DNA of 64,000 nt from an uncultured Treponema sp. Lineage in GTDB: Bacteria; Spirochaetota; Spirochaetia; Treponematales; Treponemataceae. Below the pieces are notes generated by a model. It was not told the origin of the DNA and ran no database searches. It saw only the letters and a program-made list of their open reading frames with translations. The translations under genes and the position numbers were made by a program. The stretch is taken from contig CAMNDY010000003.1 of the NCBI GenBank assembly GCA_946535985.1, positions 1-64,000 of the forward strand. The letters run 5' to 3'. Each line of letters begins with the position of its first letter. The first letter of the stretch is position 1. Positions 4,095 to 64,000 of the stretch are shown one piece after another.

Positions 4095-4213
4095 CACCAG
4101 ATTTCATTTTTTTTATAAATCTATTCTTATATATTATTAAGCTGTTTATTGTAAAAATCCCGATATTTTGATATATTATTTAACACATTTTGACAGTTTT
4201 TTAGGGGAAACAA

Positions 4214-6523
4214 ATGAACAGAAGACTTATTACTGCTGCTTTGCCATATGTTAATAATATTCCACATTTAGGAAATATAATTCAGTCGCTTTCGGGGGAT
4301 GTTTTTGCACGCTTTTGTCGCAGCAGAGGCTACGATACTCTTTATGTCTGCGGTGTAGATGAATACGGAACTGCTACAGAAACTAAGGCTCTTGAAGAAA
4401 AAAAGGATCCTCGTTCTCTTTGTAATCATTATTATCAGGAACATACAAAGATTTATAAATGGTTCAATATCAACTTTGATAAATTCGGCCGTACTTCAAA
4501 CCCTCAGTGTACAGAAATTACACAGGGACTTTTTAACGACCTTGATAAAGCTGGTTTTATTAAAGAGCATGTAAACAAGCAGCTTTATTGTCCTCACTGT
4601 AATATGTTCTTAGCAGACCGTTATGTAGACGGAACCTGTCCAAAGTGTGGTTACGAAAAGGCAAGGGGAGACCAGTGCGACAAGTGCGGAAGCCTTCTTG
4701 ACCCTATTGAACTTAAAGAACCTAAATGTCATACCTGTGGTTCAACTCCGGAAGTTCGCGAAACAAAGCATCTTTACATTGACCTTCCTGCCATGAGCGG
4801 TAAACTCAACGAATGGATGGATAAGGCAAGTGTTGAAGGCCGCTGGTCAGACAATGCTATCAATATGTCAAAAGCCTGGATCCGCGATGGACTTCAGGAA
4901 CGCGCTATTACCCGTGACCTTAAATGGGGAATTCCGGTTCCAAAGGAAGGCTACGAAAATAAAGTATTCTACGTATGGTTCAACGCCCCAATAGGCTATA
5001 TTTCTATTACAAAACAGCTGGCAGACGAACTTGAAAAATCAGGCCGTGGAACTTTTGACTGGAAGAGCTGGTGGATTCCTTCTGAGTCCGAAGAAGCAAA
5101 GGGTAAGCCAAAGGTAGATCTTTTCCAGTTTATCGGTAAAGACAATATTCCTTTCCACACTGTAATTTTCCCTTGTACACTGCTGGGCTCTCCTCACGAA
5201 TGGACAAAGCTTCATCACATGTCTTCTACAGAATTCTTAAACTACGAAGACGGAAAATTCTCTAAGAGTCTTGGAATCGGAGTATTCGGTTCAGACGCAA
5301 TAGAAACAGGAATTCCTGCCGACGCCTGGCGTTTCTACATTTTCTATAACCGCCCGGAAAAACAGGACTACCAGTTTACCTGGAAAGACTTTATGGAAAA
5401 GCTCAACGGTGAACTTATCGGTAACCTTGGAAACCTTGTAAACCGCACACTCTTATTTGTAAATAAATACTACGAAGGAAAAATCCCTGATGCTCCTGTA
5501 GATGAAGAACTCTGGACAAAAGTCCGCGAACTTGAAAAGAAGGCTACAGATTATCTTGAATGGGCAGAGCTTAAGGATGCCTTCCACACAATGTTTGAAA
5601 TTTCTGATATCTGTAATAAAAAGTTCCAGGCAACAGAACCTTGGAAGGCACGTACAGAAAATCCTGCTCTTGCAGAAAGCCTTATTCATAACCTCTGCTA
5701 TGTAATCAAAGATCTTATGATTATGATGAATCCATACATGCCTGAATATACTCAGAAAATCATTAGCTACTTTGGTAAGTCGATCGAAGAAAAGAAGGTT
5801 GGTACAGAAACAAAGCCTGGTCTTAACTGGAATGATCTTGGAGTAACAGAAGGCCTTTCAACAGTAGGTCCAACAGAAGTATTCTTCAAACCTCTTGACC
5901 AGAAATCAATGCTTGCCTTCCGCGAAAAGTTCAGCGGTAAACAGCAGAAAGAAGAAGCTAAGGCTGCCAAAAAACAGGAAAAGAAAGCTCATGCAGAACT
6001 TAAAGCTCTTCCTCTGGACCAGCAGGCTGCTTTCTTCAATGCAAACATTGAACTTAAGGTTGCAAAAATTGTTGATGTAAAACCAAATCCGGAAGGCGAA
6101 AAGCTTTATATCGAAACTCTTGATGATGGTAGCGGCACTCCACGCACAATTCAGTCGGGCTTACGCATGTATCTTAAAGAAGAAGAGCTTTTGGGCAAAC
6201 ATGTAATAATAGCCGCAAACCTTGCTCCTCGTACAATGCGCGGAATCGAAAGCCGTGGTATGCTTCTTGCCGGAGACTACAAGGATGAAAACGGAAAAGA
6301 ATGTGTAGAAGTTCTTGACGCAGGATGGGCTGAGCCGGGAACTCCTGTAATTCTTGAATGTGCAGATCCTGCAGCTGCTAAAAAGCAGGAAATCAACATT
6401 AACGAATTCTTCAGTGTTCAGATTAAAGCTGTTGATGGAAAAGTTCAGATTGCAGGAAAGAATTTACTTGCAAATGGCAGAGAAGTCGTTACAATTAAAG
6501 CATTAAATAGTGATATAGGATAA
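4214..6523 (+). CDS. metG: Methionyl-tRNA synthetase with C-terminal tRNA-binding domain
   Basis: TAALPYVNNIPHLGNI, FSKSLGIG (KMSKS-like) and C-terminal OB-fold tRNA-binding domain (VDVKPNPEGEKLYIETLDDG). Confidence 0.97.
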   Translation: MNRRLITAALPYVNNIPHLGNIIQSLSGDVFARFCRSRGYDTLYVCGVDEYGTATETKALEEKKDPRSLCNHYYQEHTKIYKWFNINFDKFGRTSNPQCTEITQGLFNDLDKAGFIKEHVNKQLYCPHCNMFLADRYVDGTCPKCGYEKARGDQCDKCGSLLDPIELKEPKCHTCGSTPEVRETKHLYIDLPAMSGKLNEWMDKASVEGRWSDNAINMSKAWIRDGLQERAITRDLKWGIPVPKEGYENKVFYVWFNAPIGYISITKQLADELEKSGRGTFDWKSWWIPSESEEAKGKPKVDLFQFIGKDNIPFHTVIFPCTLLGSPHEWTKLHHMSSTEFLNYEDGKFSKSLGIGVFGSDAIETGIPADAWRFYIFYNRPEKQDYQFTWKDFMEKLNGELIGNLGNLVNRTLLFVNKYYEGKIPDAPVDEELWTKVRELEKKATDYLEWAELKDAFHTMFEISDICNKKFQATEPWKARTENPALAESLIHNLCYVIKDLMIMMNPYMPEYTQKIISYFGKSIEEKKVGTETKPGLNWNDLGVTEGLSTVGPTEVFFKPLDQKSMLAFREKFSGKQQKEEAKAAKKQEKKAHAELKALPLDQQAAFFNANIELKVAKIVDVKPNPEGEKLYIETLDDGSGTPRTIQSGLRMYLKEEELLGKHVIIAANLAPRTMRGIESRGMLLAGDYKDENGKECVEVLDAGWAEPGTPVILECADPAAAKKQEININEFFSVQIKAVDGKVQIAGKNLLANGREVVTIKALNSDIG

Positions 6524-7890
6524 TGACAAGAGAAATATTAAACGCAGTAAATATTAGTCTCGATGGTTATAGTGTACTTATATCACTCATTATTGCTATT
6601 TCTATTTTATCTATAAAACAAATAGACACTTCTACAAGATGGTTCGCATTTACAAATGTTGCAGCAATTGTCTTTGGACTTTCGGACCTTGTAATGTGGG
6701 TTAGTGAAGGTACCGATGTTACATGGAAGCTTATTGTTTTACCTATATCATCCTGGGTATTTTACGTTTCGGGTATCTTTCTCTTTCTCTTTTATATCCG
6801 TTATGTCTATGATTATTATTGTAACTTTGAAAAGCTCAATAAAAAGTGGTGGTACTTCTGTGTAATAATGGTTTCTTTGTATCTGATTGGTGTATGTATC
6901 TCTCCATTTACAAGTTTCTTTTACACAATCGACGAATTTAATGTTTATCACCGCGGTAAGTTTTTCCCGATTTCTGTTGGTATTGAACTTTTACTTTATT
7001 TTGAAGTTTTATTCCTTGTACTTAAATTCCGTAAAAAGATTACAAATATGGAAAATATCGGTTTTGCATCCTTTATTTTCTGTCCATTTATTACTCAGAT
7101 AATTCAGATTGCTAATTACGGTATTGCCCTTAACAGTCTTGGTCTTACAATTTCCTTCTTCATTATTTATATAAATGTAAACAACCAGATTAAGACAAAG
7201 CTTCATAAAACAGAAAAAGAATTAAAGGTTATTGATAATAAGAAAACTGATTTGTTAAGCAATACAATATATAATCTTGCAAATCTGATTGAATTCAGCG
7301 AAATGGGAAGCCAGCATGTAAAGCGTGTTACTTTATACTCAAGAGCTCTTGCCAATGCATGCAAAAAAAATGGACTTTACGAGAATATCATTGATGAAAA
7401 TTTTATAAGAAACATAGAAAAAACTTCTTCGGTTCATGATATTGGAAATTCTGCAGTTCCTCGTTCTATTTTATCAAAGCCTTCTAAAGTTACACCGGAA
7501 GAATTCGAAATTATTAAAAATCACACTCTGGTTGGCAGCGATATTGTAAATCAGATTTTAGCAATAGGGCATGAACGTGATTTTATTAAAATGACAGCAG
7601 ATATTTGTAAATATCATCATGAACGCTGGGATGGAAAGGGCTATCCCGAAAAACTTAAAGGTAAGGAAATTCCTTTGTGTGCAAGAATTGTCAGTCTTGT
7701 CGATGCGTTTGATGCACTTACAACAACCCGCTGCTATAAAAAGGCTGTCTCTTTTGACGAAGCCTTTAGGGTAATTGATAATGAAAGTGGTAAGCAGTTT
7801 GATCCTGAACTTGTTATGGAATTCTTAAAATTAAAAAGGCAGATTAAAGCAATTTTAAATACATATTCCGACACTTCTTATGAGGAATAA
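6523..7890 (+). CDS. HD-GYP domain protein with N-terminal 7TM-like sensor region
   Basis: VHDIGNSAVP, YHHERWDGKGYPEKLKG, VSLVDAFDALTTTRCYKKA motifs; hydrophobic N-terminus. Confidence 0.9.
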   Translation: MTREILNAVNISLDGYSVLISLIIAISILSIKQIDTSTRWFAFTNVAAIVFGLSDLVMWVSEGTDVTWKLIVLPISSWVFYVSGIFLFLFYIRYVYDYYCNFEKLNKKWWYFCVIMVSLYLIGVCISPFTSFFYTIDEFNVYHRGKFFPISVGIELLLYFEVLFLVLKFRKKITNMENIGFASFIFCPFITQIIQIANYGIALNSLGLTISFFIIYINVNNQIKTKLHKTEKELKVIDNKKTDLLSNTIYNLANLIEFSEMGSQHVKRVTLYSRALANACKKNGLYENIIDENFIRNIEKTSSVHDIGNSAVPRSILSKPSKVTPEEFEIIKNHTLVGSDIVNQILAIGHERDFIKMTADICKYHHERWDGKGYPEKLKGKEIPLCARIVSLVDAFDALTTTRCYKKAVSFDEAFRVIDNESGKQFDPELVMEFLKLKRQIKAILNTYSDTSYEE

Positions 7891-7893
7891 TTA

Positions 7894-9042
7894 ATGTTCA
7901 AAGTACAAGTAAAAAAAATAGACTCAAGCATACATACAAATGATGGAAGTTTTTTGCAAACTCCATTCTGGTGCGAATTTAAAGCACGTCATGGCTGGAC
8001 TTACAGACGTTTTGCCTTAAATATTGAATACGAAGATGCCCAAAAAGATTTTGAAGTTTCTGTTTTAAATCGTGATTTTGCAAAGGGTAAGTTTTCTATT
8101 GCCTATATTCCTTTATTTCCAAAGCTTCCTTTTGATACAAAGCAAGTTAATGCAAATGATCAGACAATTGAGTTTGCAGCTTTTTTGCATGATATAGCAA
8201 TTGCATTAAAAGAATTTTTGCCTTCAAATACAATTGCAATTCGCTTTGATCCGGATGTAAGCTTCGATGATTTAATGGAATGTTATGCCTATAATAAGGG
8301 CTTAAAAATTGTAAGCTTTGCCGACAAGCTTGGACTACGCAAAAACCGGGTAGATATTCAGCCTCCTGATACAACGCTTGTAGATTTGACCAGAAGCACA
8401 GATGAAATACTGGAAGGCATGCATTCCAAGTGGCGTTACAATATTCGTTTGAGCGCAAAAAAGGGCGTTGTAATTCACAAATATGATGGAAAAAGTCTTA
8501 ACTTGTTAGAAAAAATAGACAAATTCTACGAACTTACAAAAGAAACCAATGCCCGCGATGGAAATTCAAGCCACGCAAAAGAATATTATTTAGATTTAAT
8601 TCGTTCAAGTGCTCAAGAAATTGCAGAAGGAAAAGATGTTCCCCAGATTAATCTTTATATTGCAGAACACGAAGGCGATGAAATTGCGGCAATTATGACT
8701 TTATTCAGTCATGATGAGGCTGTTTATCTTTATGGAGCCAGCAGCAATCATAAACGTAATCTTATGCCGAATCATCTTTTGCAATGGACAGCCATGCAGG
8801 ATGCAAAAGCCTACGGTTCAAAATATTACGACATGTACGGAATGCCACCGGAAGGTCAGGACGAAAATCATCCCATGCACGGACTTTATATGTTCAAGGC
8901 AAACTTTGGTGGCCGCATAATTCACAGGCTTGGCAGCTGGGATATGCCTTTAAGACCATTTTATTACAAACTTTACAGCATGGCCGAAGGAGCCAGAGCC
9001 TTTTGGTTTAAAAAGATTGTGAAGAAGCTGCACGGTAGATAA
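7894..9042 (+). CDS. FemAB/FemX-like aminoacyltransferase (peptidoglycan bridge formation family)
   Basis: PFWCEFKARHGW, SKWRYNIRLSAKKGV, VYLYGASSNHKRNLMPNHLLQWTAMQDAKAYGSKYYDMYG typical of the FemAB family. Confidence 0.85.
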   Translation: MFKVQVKKIDSSIHTNDGSFLQTPFWCEFKARHGWTYRRFALNIEYEDAQKDFEVSVLNRDFAKGKFSIAYIPLFPKLPFDTKQVNANDQTIEFAAFLHDIAIALKEFLPSNTIAIRFDPDVSFDDLMECYAYNKGLKIVSFADKLGLRKNRVDIQPPDTTLVDLTRSTDEILEGMHSKWRYNIRLSAKKGVVIHKYDGKSLNLLEKIDKFYELTKETNARDGNSSHAKEYYLDLIRSSAQEIAEGKDVPQINLYIAEHEGDEIAAIMTLFSHDEAVYLYGASSNHKRNLMPNHLLQWTAMQDAKAYGSKYYDMYGMPPEGQDENHPMHGLYMFKANFGGRIIHRLGSWDMPLRPFYYKLYSMAEGARAFWFKKIVKKLHGR

Positions 9043-57292: not shown

Positions 57293-57357
57293 GTATTAAT
57301 CTATAATTGATTAAAATATAGATGAATTATTTTTTTGAAACTTAGGAAATTTAAAAG

Positions 57358-60099
57358 ATGTTGTATACAATAATAATTGCTCCTATTGAAATGATTGTAG
57401 AATGGGTATTTCTTTTTATTTATAATCGTTTTACTTCATTAAATGTTATCTTTTCTGTTCTAGGTGTAAGTTTAATTATAAATTTTTTAGCATTACCCCT
57501 ATACAATATTGCTGACAAACTACAGGAAAAGGAAAGAAATATCTCAAGATTACTTGAACCTAGAGTTAAACGTATAAAAAAAGCATTTAAGGGAGATGAA
57601 CAATTCATGATGATAAATGAGTATTATCGTCAAAACAATTATCATCCACTTTATGTTTTAAGAAGTTCACTTTCAATATTAATTGAAATACCATTCTTTA
57701 TTGCTGCATATCACTTTTTAAGTCATTGTGAATATTTAACAGGAAACAGCTGGTTGTTTTTCAAAGACTTAGGTAATCCGGATGAACTTATAAAATTTTC
57801 ATTAGGAAATAAGGTGATTATAATCAGCATTCTTCCAATAATTATGACTTTAATCAATTTTGTTTCAGGAGCTATTTATTGTAAAGATGCTCCTTTGAGA
57901 GAAAAACTTCAACTTTATGGGGTTGCAATTCTTTTTCTTATTTTACTTTATAAATCACCAAGTGGCCTTGTAATCTATTGGATTCTTAACAATATTTTTT
58001 CTCTTTTTAAAAATATTGTAATGAAAGCTAAACATCCAAAGAAAATACTTCATTATATCCTTACAGCTTGTTTTTTTGTTTTTTCGATAATGTTTTGCAT
58101 CTTTAAATCAAATACAAGTTTTAATAAAAAACTATTTTTGTTCATCTTCTCATTTGTTTTTGCAATTCTTCCATATATATGTAATTTACTCAAAAAATCA
58201 AAATTTTATAATGAAAATATTTCGAAGATAAAAGAAACTGATAATAAACAAAATTTTATTCTTTTTATAACTTCAGCCCTAAGTTTATGGATGTTATGTG
58301 GATTTCTATTACCGGCAAGTGTAATTTCTTCATCTCCTATTGAATTCTCATATATTGGATTAACTTCATCTCCTGTTTCATATATTCATTCTTCAACAGC
58401 ATTGTTTTTTGGACTTTTTGTTTTCTGGCCATTTATTATTTACAAAATGTTTGGAAATAATGTAAAAAATTATTTACCGATAATTCTTTTTACTTTATGT
58501 ATCTGCGCTCTTTTTAATGCCTATATTTTTAAAGCAAGTTATGTTTCTCTTGATACTTTCTTCCAGATTGAGTCTCCTGCTGCAAATCTTAAACTTCCAT
58601 TATATAAATCACTTTTATCTTTATTAATTTTTGTTTTCATCTTTATAATTCTTATTTTATTAAAGATGAAAAATAAACTTTCAATTGCATCTACAATTAT
58701 ATTTGCTGTTTTTATTGTTGAGTTTGGATTTGGAATATATAAATCTTCTTTAATTAGGAAGGAATTCAATTACTATACAACAATGCATGTTTCAGATTCT
58801 GAAAATACAGAAATTCAACCTGTATATCATCTTTCAAAAACAAAAAAAAATGTAGTTATTCTCTTTTTGGATAGAGCTATTGGTTCTTTTCCAAAATATA
58901 TTTTTGAACAATTTCCTGATATAAAACAAGAATTAACCGGCTTTGTTTATTATCCTAATACTCTTTCATCTGGAGGAAATACTATTAATGGAATACCACC
59001 TCTGATGGGAGGTTATGAATATACATCATATGAAAATTATATAAATGACGATAAGCTTCTTGTAGATAAACATAATCAGGCACTTCTTGTTATGCCAAGA
59101 ATATTTTCAGATGCAGGATATGAAGTTACATTTACAGACCCATCTATGGCAAATTACGTTTGGGAAGGAGACTATACCCCATTCGAAGAATATCCAAAGA
59201 TTAATGTTTCTAAACAAATTGGTAAATATAGCAAAAATTACTTTAATGAAAAGAAGAACACAATTATAAAAGATCCTGATCAATATACAAAGAAACATAT
59301 CAATGATTTTTCTATTCTTCAGATACTTTTACCATTAGCAAGACTTCCTTTTTATAATACAACATTAAATAAAGCTGAAAATAATACAGATTTTTATAAT
59401 AATTTTTCTTCTCTTTATTATTTACCAGAGCTTGTTGATTTTGATTCAGATTCAAATACTCTTTCTATTATTGAAAATGAATTACCACATAGACCTGTTT
59501 TATTAAAAGCACCAGAATATGAAATAACTTTAAATAAAAATGAAGAATATAATGTTAATGATGTTTATAAAGCAACAAATATTCTTGATTTAAAAGATTA
59601 TAACGTTAATATTGCATCCTTTATGCAAGTTAAAAAGTTCATAAGATATTTAAAAGACAATAATGTATACGATAATACAAGAATTATTTTAGTTTCGGAT
59701 CACGGATATTTTCACAGTTATAAAGATTTTGCAAATTTTGATGATCCTATTGTTCCCTCACAATTTAATTGTCTTTTAATGTATAAGGATTTTAATTCTA
59801 ATGAACCGTTAAAAACTGATAATACCTTTATGACAAATGCAGATACTTTATTTCTTGCTAAACAGGATCTTGATATTTCATCAGTCAATCCTTTTACTAA
59901 TAAAGAATTTAAACAGGAAAAAGATTATGTAATCTGCTGTCCGGTTCAAAGCTATGAAAATAATACATTATCAGGTAATCAATATAACCCTAATTATATG
60001 AGAAATAAGACAAAGTTTGACTATTCAAAGCTTAAATGCTGGAAAGTCCATGATGATATTTTTAATCCTGATAATTGGGAACCATACCATTTTGAATAG
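57358..60099 (+). CDS. YidC/Oxa1-like membrane domain fused to EptA/LtaS-like phosphotransferase (sulfatase fold) domain
   Basis: N-term: LPLYNIADKLQEKERNISRLLEPRVKRIKKAFKGDEQFMMINEYYRQNNYHPLYVLRSSLSILIEIPFFIAAYHFL; C-term: NVVILFLDRAIGSF (D505), SSGGNTINGIPPLMGG (candidate nucleophile T542), RIILVSDHGYFHS (D781/H782). Confidence 0.82.
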   Translation: MLYTIIIAPIEMIVEWVFLFIYNRFTSLNVIFSVLGVSLIINFLALPLYNIADKLQEKERNISRLLEPRVKRIKKAFKGDEQFMMINEYYRQNNYHPLYVLRSSLSILIEIPFFIAAYHFLSHCEYLTGNSWLFFKDLGNPDELIKFSLGNKVIIISILPIIMTLINFVSGAIYCKDAPLREKLQLYGVAILFLILLYKSPSGLVIYWILNNIFSLFKNIVMKAKHPKKILHYILTACFFVFSIMFCIFKSNTSFNKKLFLFIFSFVFAILPYICNLLKKSKFYNENISKIKETDNKQNFILFITSALSLWMLCGFLLPASVISSSPIEFSYIGLTSSPVSYIHSSTALFFGLFVFWPFIIYKMFGNNVKNYLPIILFTLCICALFNAYIFKASYVSLDTFFQIESPAANLKLPLYKSLLSLLIFVFIFIILILLKMKNKLSIASTIIFAVFIVEFGFGIYKSSLIRKEFNYYTTMHVSDSENTEIQPVYHLSKTKKNVVILFLDRAIGSFPKYIFEQFPDIKQELTGFVYYPNTLSSGGNTINGIPPLMGGYEYTSYENYINDDKLLVDKHNQALLVMPRIFSDAGYEVTFTDPSMANYVWEGDYTPFEEYPKINVSKQIGKYSKNYFNEKKNTIIKDPDQYTKKHINDFSILQILLPLARLPFYNTTLNKAENNTDFYNNFSSLYYLPELVDFDSDSNTLSIIENELPHRPVLLKAPEYEITLNKNEEYNVNDVYKATNILDLKDYNVNIASFMQVKKFIRYLKDNNVYDNTRIILVSDHGYFHSYKDFANFDDPIVPSQFNCLLMYKDFNSNEPLKTDNTFMTNADTLFLAKQDLDISSVNPFTNKEFKQEKDYVICCPVQSYENNTLSGNQYNPNYMRNKTKFDYSKLKCWKVHDDIFNPDNWEPYHFE

Positions 60100-60108
60100 G
60101 AGCTGTTG

Positions 60109-61320
60109 ATGAATACTTTTTTATATATTGATCCAGGTACAGGCAGTATGCTTTTTTCTCTTTTTATTGGAATTGCAACTGCTGCTGTTTTTGGAATTAA
60201 AAAGCTTTTTATTAAACTAAAATTTTCACTATCAAGCGGCAAAAGAGACACTGCAGCAGATAAAGAAGTTTTACCTTATGTAATTTTTTCTGATCATAAA
60301 AGATACTGGAATGTTTTTTCTTCAATTTGCGATGAATTTGAAAAATTAAAAATCCCTTTAACTTATTATACCTGCAGCAGTGATGATCCTGTTCTTTCGC
60401 AAAACTATGAATATGTAAAAGGTGAATTCATTGGCGAAGGAAACAAACCTTTTGTAAAACTTAATTTTCTTAAAGCTGATAAAGTCATTTCTACAACACC
60501 TGGTCTTGATGTATATCAATGGAAACGTTCTAAGAATGTTAACAAATATATACATATTCCTCATAGTATAGATGATTTATCTAATTATAAGATGTTTGGT
60601 CTTGATCATTATGATGTAGTACTTGCAAGTGGTCAAAATCAGATTGACTTTATAAACAAAATTGAAGCTTTGAGAAATATAAATAAAAAAGAAATGCATA
60701 TTGTTGGTTCTACTTATATGGACGGACTTCTTGCAAAGAAAAATGGTTTGAGTGATACCAAAAAAACAAATAAACTTACAGTTTTGGTAGCACCAAGTTG
60801 GGGTAAAAATTCTATTCTTTGCAAATTTGGTGAAAAATTTCTTACTGCATTAACCAAAACAGATTTTGAAATTATAGTGCGTCCACATCCTCAATCGAAA
60901 ACTGCAGATAAAGAAGTTCTTGATTCTTTAATGAAAAAGTTTCCTGACATTGACTGGAATTTTGATAATGACAACTTTTCTATAATGAATAAATCTGATG
61001 TTCTTATTTCGGATTTTAGCAGCATTATATTTGATTATTCTTTTATCTTTGAGCGCCCTGTAATTTATGCAGATACTGATTTTGATACTTCAACTTTTGA
61101 TGCAGATTGGGTAGATGAAACTTTATGGGCACAAAAAGTATTACCAAAAATTGGTTTACAACTTAAAGAAAAGGATTTTGATACTATTTCGGATATTATA
61201 AAGGATTTAATCCAGAACAAAACCTTATCTGAAGATAGAAACAACATAATTAATGAATGCTGGTGTTATAAAGGAGAGGCAACAAAAAGAATTATGGATT
61301 ATTTATTAAATAAACAATAA
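60109..61320 (+). CDS. TagF/TagB-like CDP-glycerol glycerophosphotransferase with N-terminal DPGTGS membrane segment
   Basis: MNTFLYIDPGTGSMLFSLFIGIATAAVFGIKKLF; glycerophosphotransferase-like VLVAPSWGKNSIL, EIIVRPHPQS, DVLISDFSSIIFDYSFIFERPVIYADTD. Confidence 0.82.
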   Translation: MNTFLYIDPGTGSMLFSLFIGIATAAVFGIKKLFIKLKFSLSSGKRDTAADKEVLPYVIFSDHKRYWNVFSSICDEFEKLKIPLTYYTCSSDDPVLSQNYEYVKGEFIGEGNKPFVKLNFLKADKVISTTPGLDVYQWKRSKNVNKYIHIPHSIDDLSNYKMFGLDHYDVVLASGQNQIDFINKIEALRNINKKEMHIVGSTYMDGLLAKKNGLSDTKKTNKLTVLVAPSWGKNSILCKFGEKFLTALTKTDFEIIVRPHPQSKTADKEVLDSLMKKFPDIDWNFDNDNFSIMNKSDVLISDFSSIIFDYSFIFERPVIYADTDFDTSTFDADWVDETLWAQKVLPKIGLQLKEKDFDTISDIIKDLIQNKTLSEDRNNIINECWCYKGEATKRIMDYLLNKQ

Positions 61321-61390: not shown

Positions 61391-62476
61391 ATGATAAATT
61401 TTACTGTTGGTCCAGTTCAAATGGATGAAGAAACTAGAAAGATGGGAATGGATCAGATTCCATATTTCAGAACACCAGAATTTTCCCAAACCATGAAAGA
61501 AAACGAAAAACTGCTCTGCAAGTTTTTTGATGCACCACAAGATTCACGTGTAATTTTCATGACCGGCTCTGGAACTTCAAGTATGGAAGGTGGAATCATG
61601 AACTTCTTTACCACTTCAGACAAATTACTTGTTGTTAATGGTGGAAGTTTTGGCCACAGATTTGTTGAACTTTGTGAAATTCATGAAATTCCTTTTTCAG
61701 AAATTAAACTTGATTACGGAAAACCTTTAACAAAAGAAATACTTTCAAAATATGAAAAGGCCGGATATACCGGAATGGTATTACAGCTTTGCGAAACTTC
61801 AACAGGTGTTCTTTATGATATGAATCTTGTTGGTGATTTTTGTCAACGCAACAATTGTTTTCTTTTTGTAGATGCAGTCAGCGGTTTCTTAGCAGACAAA
61901 ATATCAATGAAAGAAATGCATATAAATGCTGCAATTACAGGAAGCCAAAAAGCGCTTGCACTTCCCCCTTCCATGAGTTTCACTGTTATGGACACAGAAG
62001 CTCAAAAACGTTGTTATGCTAATAAAGTAAAAAGCATGTATTTTAATTATGCAGATTACCTTAAAAATGGCGAACGTGGACAAACACCGTTTACTCCGGC
62101 AGTAGGAACACTTTTAATGCTTAATGAAAAATTAAAACGCATTGAAGCAAAGGGTGGCATTGAAGAAATGAATAAAGCTGCTGCTGAACGAGCTGAATAT
62201 TTTAGAAATAGAATTAAACACCTTCCTTTTAAACTGTTTACAGAAGAAGGAAGTACATCAAATTGTGTTACAGCACTTATGCCAACTACAGCTGGTGTAA
62301 ATGCTCATAAAATCTTTGAGATTATAAAAGATGAATATGGAATCTGGATTTGTCCAAACGGCGGAGACATGGCAGACAAAGTTTTCCGTGTAGGACATAT
62401 TGGTTCAATTTCAAAAGACGAAATAGATAAACTTGTTCAGGTTTTTGATGATCTGGCAAAACGCAAATTAATATAA
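61391..62476 (+). CDS. Class V PLP-dependent aminotransferase (AEP-pyruvate / alanine-glyoxylate transaminase-like)
   Basis: FTVGPVQMDEETRKMG, FMTGSGTSSMEGGIMNF, FVDAVSGFLADKISM, TGSQKALALPPSMSF (Schiff-base Lys). Confidence 0.88.
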   Translation: MINFTVGPVQMDEETRKMGMDQIPYFRTPEFSQTMKENEKLLCKFFDAPQDSRVIFMTGSGTSSMEGGIMNFFTTSDKLLVVNGGSFGHRFVELCEIHEIPFSEIKLDYGKPLTKEILSKYEKAGYTGMVLQLCETSTGVLYDMNLVGDFCQRNNCFLFVDAVSGFLADKISMKEMHINAAITGSQKALALPPSMSFTVMDTEAQKRCYANKVKSMYFNYADYLKNGERGQTPFTPAVGTLLMLNEKLKRIEAKGGIEEMNKAAAERAEYFRNRIKHLPFKLFTEEGSTSNCVTALMPTTAGVNAHKIFEIIKDEYGIWICPNGGDMADKVFRVGHIGSISKDEIDKLVQVFDDLAKRKLI

Positions 62477-62489
62477 TCGAGGTAATATT

Positions 62490-62954
62490 ATGATAGCAGG
62501 AAAAACAGTTGTATATACAAGCGGAACATTTGATATGCTTCATGCAAACCATATTAAAATGATTGAATATGCACGCTCTCTTGGAGATATTCTTATTGTT
62601 GGTGTAAATACAGATGAACTTGTAGAAAGCTATAAGTCTACTCCAATAATTCCTTTTGATGAACGTATTGCTCTGGTTAAAGCTCTAAAATATCCTGATA
62701 TAGTAATACCACAACATTCTCTGGATCATGCAGATAAAGTAAAAAAATTAAACTTTGATGTTTTTGTTGTTGGAGATGACTGGGCCGGTAAATATGACTA
62801 CCTTAAAGAACTTGGAGTTGATGTTGTATACTTCCCTTATGGAGCCGGTGTGAGTTCAACAAACCTTAAACAACGCATATACGAAAATTATGAACAAATG
62901 AAAAAGAAAGCTGATAATCATTTTTCTAATGATACAGATGTTAGAAAGAAATAA
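62490..62954 (+). CDS. TagD-like cytidylyltransferase (CTP:alcohol/phosphonate phosphate cytidylyltransferase family)
   Basis: VVYTSGTFDMLHANHIKMIEYARSLGD (HxxH nucleotidyltransferase motif), GDDWAGKYDYLKELGVDVVYFPYGAGVSSTNLKQRI. Confidence 0.85.
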   Translation: MIAGKTVVYTSGTFDMLHANHIKMIEYARSLGDILIVGVNTDELVESYKSTPIIPFDERIALVKALKYPDIVIPQHSLDHADKVKKLNFDVFVVGDDWAGKYDYLKELGVDVVYFPYGAGVSSTNLKQRIYENYEQMKKKADNHFSNDTDVRKK

Positions 62955-62964
62955 ATAATACTTT

Positions 62965-64000
62965 ATGAAAAAATATTATTTTATATTTATTGTTTTTATA
63001 TTATGTATTTTTAAATCCTCAGCACAAGAATTACTCAAAAGTGTTGAAGAAGATTATTATGATTTTTTAAGTCTTCAGGGACTTTCTGAACGCCCTACAT
63101 TAACATATAGAACTCTTAGTGATTCAGTATGGAATATTTCTGAAAACTCAATTCATTTATGGAATCAAAATAATCTTGGCAGAACTAAAGTTTTATGGCA
63201 AAAAGACACACCTGTTTCAAATATATTCACAAATGGAATTATACAAGGGGTTAAATATAAAATAATATCTCCAAACTGGTATAACAGTTATAATACAGCA
63301 GCACCATATGGTCAGAATGATGGAGCAATATGGCAAGGCCGTGGATACAATACATATTTAACAGGAGGTATCTTTGCTGAATTTTATGGATTATCAATTA
63401 CATTAAAACCTCAAATAATTTTTATACAAAACTTGTCTTTTGATTATACAAAACCAAATTATTCTGGAGATTTATACAAAGATAAAGCAAATCTATATGG
63501 AGATTATAGTTTAGGTTGTATTGATGCACCACAACGTTTTGGGAACAAACCGCTTTTTAATTTTGATTTAAGTGATACTGAAATAAGATACTCATGGCAT
63601 ACTATTACTTTAGGATTTGGAAATCAAAATATATGGATTGGTCCTGCACAAGATAATCCAATTATTCATTCAAATACAGCAGCTGGCTATCCTCACCTTG
63701 ATTTTGGTATTCGTAGACAAAAAATTCAAATTAATAATGTTGATTTAGGAGATATAGAATTTCGTTATTGGGCAGGAAAAACATCTGAATCAAACTTCTT
63801 TGATAATGATGACTCAAATAATGATACTTTAATAACAGGACTCGCTGTTGCATATGAAATACCTTTTATTAAAGGACTAAGTATTGGTCTTAATAGAACA
63901 ATGTTAACTAAATGGAATAATAAATCTGCATATTCTTTTTTTACACTTCTAATTCCGTTTATGAAGAAAAAAGCTGGTTATGATGAGAGTGATCAAAGAG
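62965..64000 (+). CDS. Wzi-like capsule assembly outer-membrane protein (partial, runs off window)
   Basis: Open frame from ATG 62965 to window end; signal peptide IVFILCIFKSSAQ; NDGAIWQGRGYNTYLTGGIFAEFYGLSITLKPQIIF as in Wzi-family proteins. Confidence 0.72.
   Translation, partial: MKKYYFIFIVFILCIFKSSAQELLKSVEEDYYDFLSLQGLSERPTLTYRTLSDSVWNISENSIHLWNQNNLGRTKVLWQKDTPVSNIFTNGIIQGVKYKIISPNWYNSYNTAAPYGQNDGAIWQGRGYNTYLTGGIFAEFYGLSITLKPQIIFIQNLSFDYTKPNYSGDLYKDKANLYGDYSLGCIDAPQRFGNKPLFNFDLSDTEIRYSWHTITLGFGNQNIWIGPAQDNPIIHSNTAAGYPHLDFGIRRQKIQINNVDLGDIEFRYWAGKTSESNFFDNDDSNNDTLITGLAVAYEIPFIKGLSIGLNRTMLTKWNNKSAYSFFTLLIPFMKKKAGYDESDQR

Follow-up and report, generated by a model that had tools for sequence, protein, structure and literature searches.

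A YidC-fold fusion in Treponema

A single polypeptide of 913 aa encoded by an uncultured Treponema joins a true YidC/Oxa1 core to a catalytic domain of the LtaS/EptA/PbgA type, and this architecture is much commoner than one sequence could show. Both halves come from known superfamilies, and there is a sizeable chance that the YidC fold has taken on a new function here. The protein is proposed to be a polytopic cytoplasmic-membrane phospho-group transferase for a surface glycan or glycolipid, with a four-step cycle set out below, a reading to which about even probability is given. Searches of the open literature returned nothing relevant on a YidC-sulfatase architecture.

The window is the whole stretch analysed, the first 64,000 nucleotides of contig CAMNDY010000003.1, from a Treponema-group genome of 2.78 Mb in 148 contigs and 86% complete. 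The fusion gene occupies 57358..60099 on the + strand (as do all features given below), which agrees with the open reading frame of the initial annotation; it starts with ATG, and AGGAAA, resembling a ribosome-binding site, can be read 8 nt before the start codon (57344..57349). Close homologues include those of T. bryantii and T. ruminis. Besides the fusion, the source genome has a single 60KD_IMP gene, the separate housekeeping yidC (626 aa), on another contig (G000:C7).

Reality and spread of the fusion

A non-redundant set of 144 full-length fusions was aligned; most are from spirochaetes, with a patchy presence in Lachnospiraceae and in one other phylum. Of 118 genomes of the genus, 88 have the fusion, often in several copies that are sometimes in tandem, and it extends to further families of the Treponema order, class and phylum. 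Farther afield it occurs in about 10 of 200 genomes in the family of a Lachnospiraceae MAG, in 3 of 399 in the phylum of that MAG, and in 2 of 189 in the phylum to which a MAG with the label Myxococcales belongs; many of the fusion-bearing genomes are metagenome assemblies, of which single records could be misbinned. The fusion was nevertheless found repeatedly and independently with the same neighbours, which favours a spread that is real, patchy and probably horizontal.

An assembly or gene-calling artefact that joined yidC to a sulfatase gene might be suspected for a window taken from a fragmented and incomplete genome. The probability of this is practically nil, as the reading is refuted by the homologues: the 144 fusions come from independent genomes, among them the finished chromosome of Treponema ruminis (CP031518), and the housekeeping yidC is a separate gene.

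The YidC-fold domain

The N-terminal domain is a true YidC/Oxa1 core, as had been recognised from the sequence at the outset. Residues 32-223 (57451..58026) match Pfam 60KD_IMP with 80.6 bits against a cut-off of 35 (E 1.7e-22), and phmmer aligns the fusion with B. halodurans YidC2 (3wo7) at E 1.5e-9. The TIGR03592 score of 87.7 bits barely exceeds its cut-off of 84.3, and automatic labels such as 'membrane protein insertase YidC' can give a wrong idea of the fusion family. When residues 1-242 were modelled alone (AlphaFold, pLDDT 83), the model matched B. halodurans YidC (3wo6/3wo7) with TM 0.70 and rmsd 3.5; E. coli YidC was also matched, and there was no other confident fold match. The five-helix core, the cytoplasmic hairpin and the PSGLVxYW segment are shared with YidC/Oxa1/Alb3 insertases (TIGR03592, PF02096; 3wo6), whereas the groove Arg/Lys is changed to N/S/T and the terminal QQ to KN, the transferase half stands where insertases have a C-terminal tail, and the fusion sits in surface-glycan loci and on a branch apart from housekeeping YidC.

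The YidC core is the best-conserved region across the 144 fusions, with a mean majority frequency of 0.67 compared to 0.48 in the catalytic part, 0.41 in the membrane helices and 0.30 in the linker; columns conserved at 95% or above number 45 of 196 in the core and 30 of 424 in the catalytic part. A functional core is implied by its being the most conserved region of the protein. The conservation carries its own signature, which sets the fusion apart from the housekeeping YidC that these genomes also encode and consists of the groove residue, K218-N219, Y49 and N211. The groove residue of the window protein is N42 (57481..57483), aligned with R366 of E. coli YidC; the fusions have N in 55 cases, S in 45 and T in 44, and K/R in none, whereas 13 of the 15 housekeeping YidC have K/R and the remaining two could not be properly aligned. 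The K218-N219 pair (58009..58014) replaces the canonical QQ, with K in 144/144 and N in 141/144 fusions against Q in 14/15 and 13/15 housekeeping proteins at the same columns. The type of head group encoded nearby showed no clear relation to which of N, S or T is in the groove. A quick tree of 48 fusion domains and 13 housekeeping YidC separates the two sets by a single branch with SH-aLRT of 100, a value to be read with a long-branch warning.

The initial annotation suggested that the domain could serve as a glycan/lipid-phosphate channel or scaffold instead of a protein insertase. An insertase of the ordinary kind is indeed unlikely, and the absence of the groove cation in 144/144 fusions is consistent with the suggested role, although loss of this charge alone does not abolish insertion by E. 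coli YidC. The positive residue has been described as strictly conserved in YidC; however, the R366A/N variants still insert proteins if an aromatic or hydrophilic residue stands at neighbouring position 517 (PMC8920935). W208 of the fusion aligns with that position, so that the groove change is compatible with insertase activity. The lost charge was thus dropped as proof of lost insertase function; it marks the fusions out as a branch of their own and is weak evidence against insertase activity. Such tolerance of neutral groove residues, together with an intact fold that includes the cytoplasmic helical hairpin and PSGLVxYW, would suit a dedicated insertase that serves only a private client, such as the product of the downstream gene or the helices of the enzyme itself. 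This reading is considered unlikely, as the cation is missing throughout, a housekeeping YidC is usually also present (16 of 17 genomes checked), and elsewhere EptA, LtaS and TagF-type proteins do without a private insertase.

Membrane topology and the catalytic half

Seven further helices are predicted from AlphaFold secondary structure over residues 227-477 (58036..58788), the last five of which equal the helix number of EptA and LtaS; OpgB aligned weakly to part of this membrane region. The predicted topology, in which five YidC helices ending in the cytoplasm are followed by these seven, would leave the catalytic domain on the outer side of the membrane, the arrangement of LtaS and EptA, and the charges of the predicted cytoplasmic loops, which are rich in Lys, broadly agree with it. 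A model of the whole protein, built with 26 homologues, has a mean pLDDT of 85.6 that is mostly above 90 in the catalytic part.

The catalytic half is an LtaS/EptA/PbgA-type domain of the sulfatase/alkaline-phosphatase superfamily. Pfam Sulfatase covers residues 497-786 (58846..59715) with 35 bits against a cut-off of 25, the predicted domain extending to about residue 913, and PbgA, MCR-1, EptA, YejM and LtaS are among the best Foldseek matches of the whole model. D505, T542, H711, D781, H782, K810 and D811 do not vary among the 144 fusions. D505 (58870..58872) and D781-H782 (59698..59703) are predicted metal ligands, H711 (59488..59490) is a predicted substrate or metal contact, and T542 (58981..58983) is the predicted nucleophile, which hhalign places on the second Thr of the SCGTAT motif of E. 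coli EptA. This Thr is the EptA nucleophile, equivalent to T285 of MCR-1. Both the nucleophile and the metal-ligand positions had been proposed beforehand, and are upheld by the alignment and by the invariance.

The further proposal of an EptA/MCR-like phosphotransferase stands for the LtaS/EptA superfamily but not for EptA/MCR specifically. Fold, catalytic residues and an alignable nucleophile motif are shared with these phosphoethanolamine transferases; however, the two cysteines that flank the nucleophile (SCGTxTAxSVPC) are replaced, with S538 and P548 at those columns, and the overall profile match is low (E 0.0016, probability 16%). The missing cysteines rule out filing the protein under EptA/MCR, and PbgA and LtaS match about equally well, with the weak match to OpgB in addition. 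The phosphoglycerol transferases LtaS, OpgB and GacH act on surface polymers. They have in common with the fusion a set of helices followed by an outside alkaline-phosphatase-superfamily domain (the outside placement being predicted for the fusion), with an acidic ligand, a Thr nucleophile and an Asp-His pair, whereas the fusion has twelve core helices compared to about five in these proteins, an N-terminal YidC core, and weak sequence similarity beyond the motifs. PbgA is a regulator of LPS synthesis that has no YidC domain. PbgA/YejM is the top single Foldseek match of the fusion model (6xlp), and the fusion differs from it in keeping all catalytic residues as well as in its YidC domain.

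The same searches bear on a hydrolytic role, in which a phosphodiesterase, phosphonate monoester hydrolase or sulfatase would trim surface groups with no transfer. Phosphonate monoester hydrolases and sulfatases also appear among the fold matches of the whole model, and the profile matches of the catalytic half reach both sulfatases and LtaS/MCR-1; yet the nucleophile is a Thr rather than the Cys/Ser of sulfatases, the membrane-embedded arrangement is that of transferases, and the operons are biosynthetic, which leaves hydrolysis quite improbable.

The partner gene and head-group chemistry

The gene that begins 6 nt downstream of the fusion (60106..61320) encodes a Glyphos_transf protein (TagB/TagF-like, Pfam 56.6 bits), here called GLYPH, with the N-terminal hydrophobic segment FLYIDPGTGSMLFS. 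For 106 of 129 fusions a member of the GLYPH cluster is found no more than eight genes away, and for 54 it is the next gene downstream. Across the 118 genomes, 84 have both, 4 the fusion only, 1 GLYPH only and 29 neither (Fisher p 4e-22, with phylogeny not corrected). The start segment LYIDPGTGSMLFS is kept across phyla (window 60106-61320; L193:2614-3873; L144, L147 and others), and is possibly a docking or membrane-insertion signal for a YidC-type protein.

GLYPH would be a possible client for the dedicated insertase introduced above, as its segment FLYIDPGTGSMLFS resembles an N-out YidC substrate, its co-occurrence with the fusion is near-perfect, and its N-terminal segment is kept even in Lachnospiraceae; to be set against this are the 4 of 88 fusion-bearing genomes with no GLYPH match. 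The strong linkage is also what a structural or regulatory scaffold would produce, in which the YidC domain moves nothing and docks the transferase to its partner or to the glycan assembly machinery, and for which the altered groove chemistry is also suitable. The conserved polar residues T164, N167, N211, N212 and S215, which from the YidC fold are likely to line the groove, exceed the needs of a mere anchor, and a scaffold is thought about as improbable as a private insertase.

The remaining genes of the window locus form an operon with the fusion and GLYPH, which bears out the co-orientation with glycan-phosphate genes described initially. A class-V aminotransferase (61391..62476), PhnW/AEP-transaminase-like in its profile matches and below equivalog cut-offs, is followed by a TagD-like cytidylyltransferase (62490..62954; CTP_transf_like), which falls below the glycerol-3-phosphate cytidylyltransferase cut-off, and by a Wzi-type capsule assembly protein (62965..64000, running past the window end to contig position 64683; L142:966-2684, Pfam Caps_assemb_Wzi 54.4 bits). 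Beyond it the operon holds a GNAT-type protein, LicD genes, a Wzx-type protein and a second Glyphos_transf. With two more downstream (L142 10521-14275), the Wzi-type or similar outer-membrane proteins around the locus suggest a capsule-like polymer.

Many other fusions lie near head-group genes, which were named partly by Pfam and in several cases by eye from the sequence: PepM with a cytidylyltransferase, NTP_transf_3 with aminotransferase V (PntC-AEPT-like), LicC-like, LicC-LicA-like and Ppd. Some of the neighbouring cytidylyl- or nucleotidyltransferases are themselves fused to PEP mutase, aminotransferases or choline kinase. Heptose-type GHMP/SIS/NTP genes, LicD, MBOAT, sugar transferases and Wzi also occur as neighbours. 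A further frequent neighbour, represented by L139 (616 aa) and about 16 similar ORFs, is a nucleotidyltransferase fused to a protein of the class I/II aminotransferase fold; it could be an enzyme of the phosphoserine- or phosphothreonine-decarboxylase type that makes a CDP-amino-alcohol.

These head-group activation genes are like those of the PntC/AEPT phosphonate tailoring loci, including that of Treponema denticola (PMC6697681), the main text of which has no mention of a sulfatase or insertase gene. The PhnW-like gene would suggest an AEP-phosphonate role for the window locus; however, no PEP mutase (PF13714) was detected in the source genome, an absence that is not certain at 86% completeness. 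This role was rejected, and the head group of the window locus is therefore not expected to be AEP made by the usual route.

Proposed mechanism

Domain composition, conservation, a topology consistent with an outside catalytic domain, and linkage to GLYPH and head-group genes are the computed support for the proposed transferase. In a first step, neighbouring cytoplasmic enzymes would make a CDP- or CMP-activated head group that differs between loci. Membrane-anchored GLYPH would then load the head group onto a lipid or glycolipid in the inner leaflet; the linkage data suggest that GLYPH supplies it from the CDP/CMP donor inside. In the third step, the YidC-fold domain, having kept a polar groove and lost the insertase cation, would bind the lipid and/or the partner while the phospho-head group crosses the membrane. 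Finally, the outside catalytic domain, carried by 5 + 7 membrane helices, would take the phospho-group onto T542, with the metal held by D505/D781/H782, and pass it to the surface polymer. For the fourth step, superfamily chemistry points to phospho-group transfer through T542 on the outside as the most likely reaction; steps 2 and 3 are put forward with low certainty. Known TagF-type enzymes polymerise on lipid-linked acceptors and are not known to make phospholipid donors, so that step 2 and step 4 could each be a decoration independent of the other.

As to the third step, the YidC domain probably handles a lipid or a partner rather than performing general protein insertion. E. coli YidC scrambles lipids in vitro (PMC10491306), and a YidC fold through which lipid head groups can pass would be the economical candidate for joining the two sides of the membrane; lipid scrambling is common to all tested insertases, and on its own does not single out this role. 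The broadest version of the proposal is that a bacterial branch of Oxa1/YidC has turned from protein insertion to carrying phospho-head-group lipids across the membrane, with a covalent link to the enzyme that consumes these lipids and a dedicated loader on the cytoplasmic side, as a spirochaete surface-decoration system with interchangeable head groups. This is tentative and somewhat improbable, and yet less so than either the private insertase or the scaffold. If true, it would identify machinery responsible for the surface glycans that Treponema modifies with phosphate and phosphonate, and the YidC fold would have gained a new use. Lipid scrambling by insertases has only recently been shown in vitro, and the fusion makes its biological role in bacteria directly testable, as it has a conserved YidC core from which the insertase hallmark is gone and which is tied to a superfamily that consumes membrane phospholipid donors.

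Variant and divided forms

Split or truncated genes aside, the neighbourhood survey turned up no intact copy that lacked one of the halves. Partial matches over residues 250-908 only, which had the appearance of copies without a YidC domain, proved to be complete fusions when the ORFs were read, and the ORFs with only one of the halves were cut off by contig ends, belonged to split pairs or, in two cases, were truncated copies. Three loci have the fusion split into two adjacent ORFs (L078 13644-16454, L152 12708-15413 and L136 from 9991 onward), at domain borders or within the YidC part, by frameshift, by decay or as a true two-gene form.

A 787-aa fusion from Lachnospiraceae (L193:4414-6777) combines the conserved YidC core with a different sulfatase half, of a type that is otherwise stand-alone, and has the partner gene nearby upstream, as in a module swap. 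Its retention of both the core and GLYPH with a catalytic half of another type hints that the two belong together. A Lachnospiraceae MAG encodes three nearby membrane proteins of a sulfatase-like, stand-alone kind (L192:2412-4067, 4111-5829 and 6915-8579), each about 550-570 aa long, which are distant relatives of the C-terminal half of the fusion and have no YidC domain.
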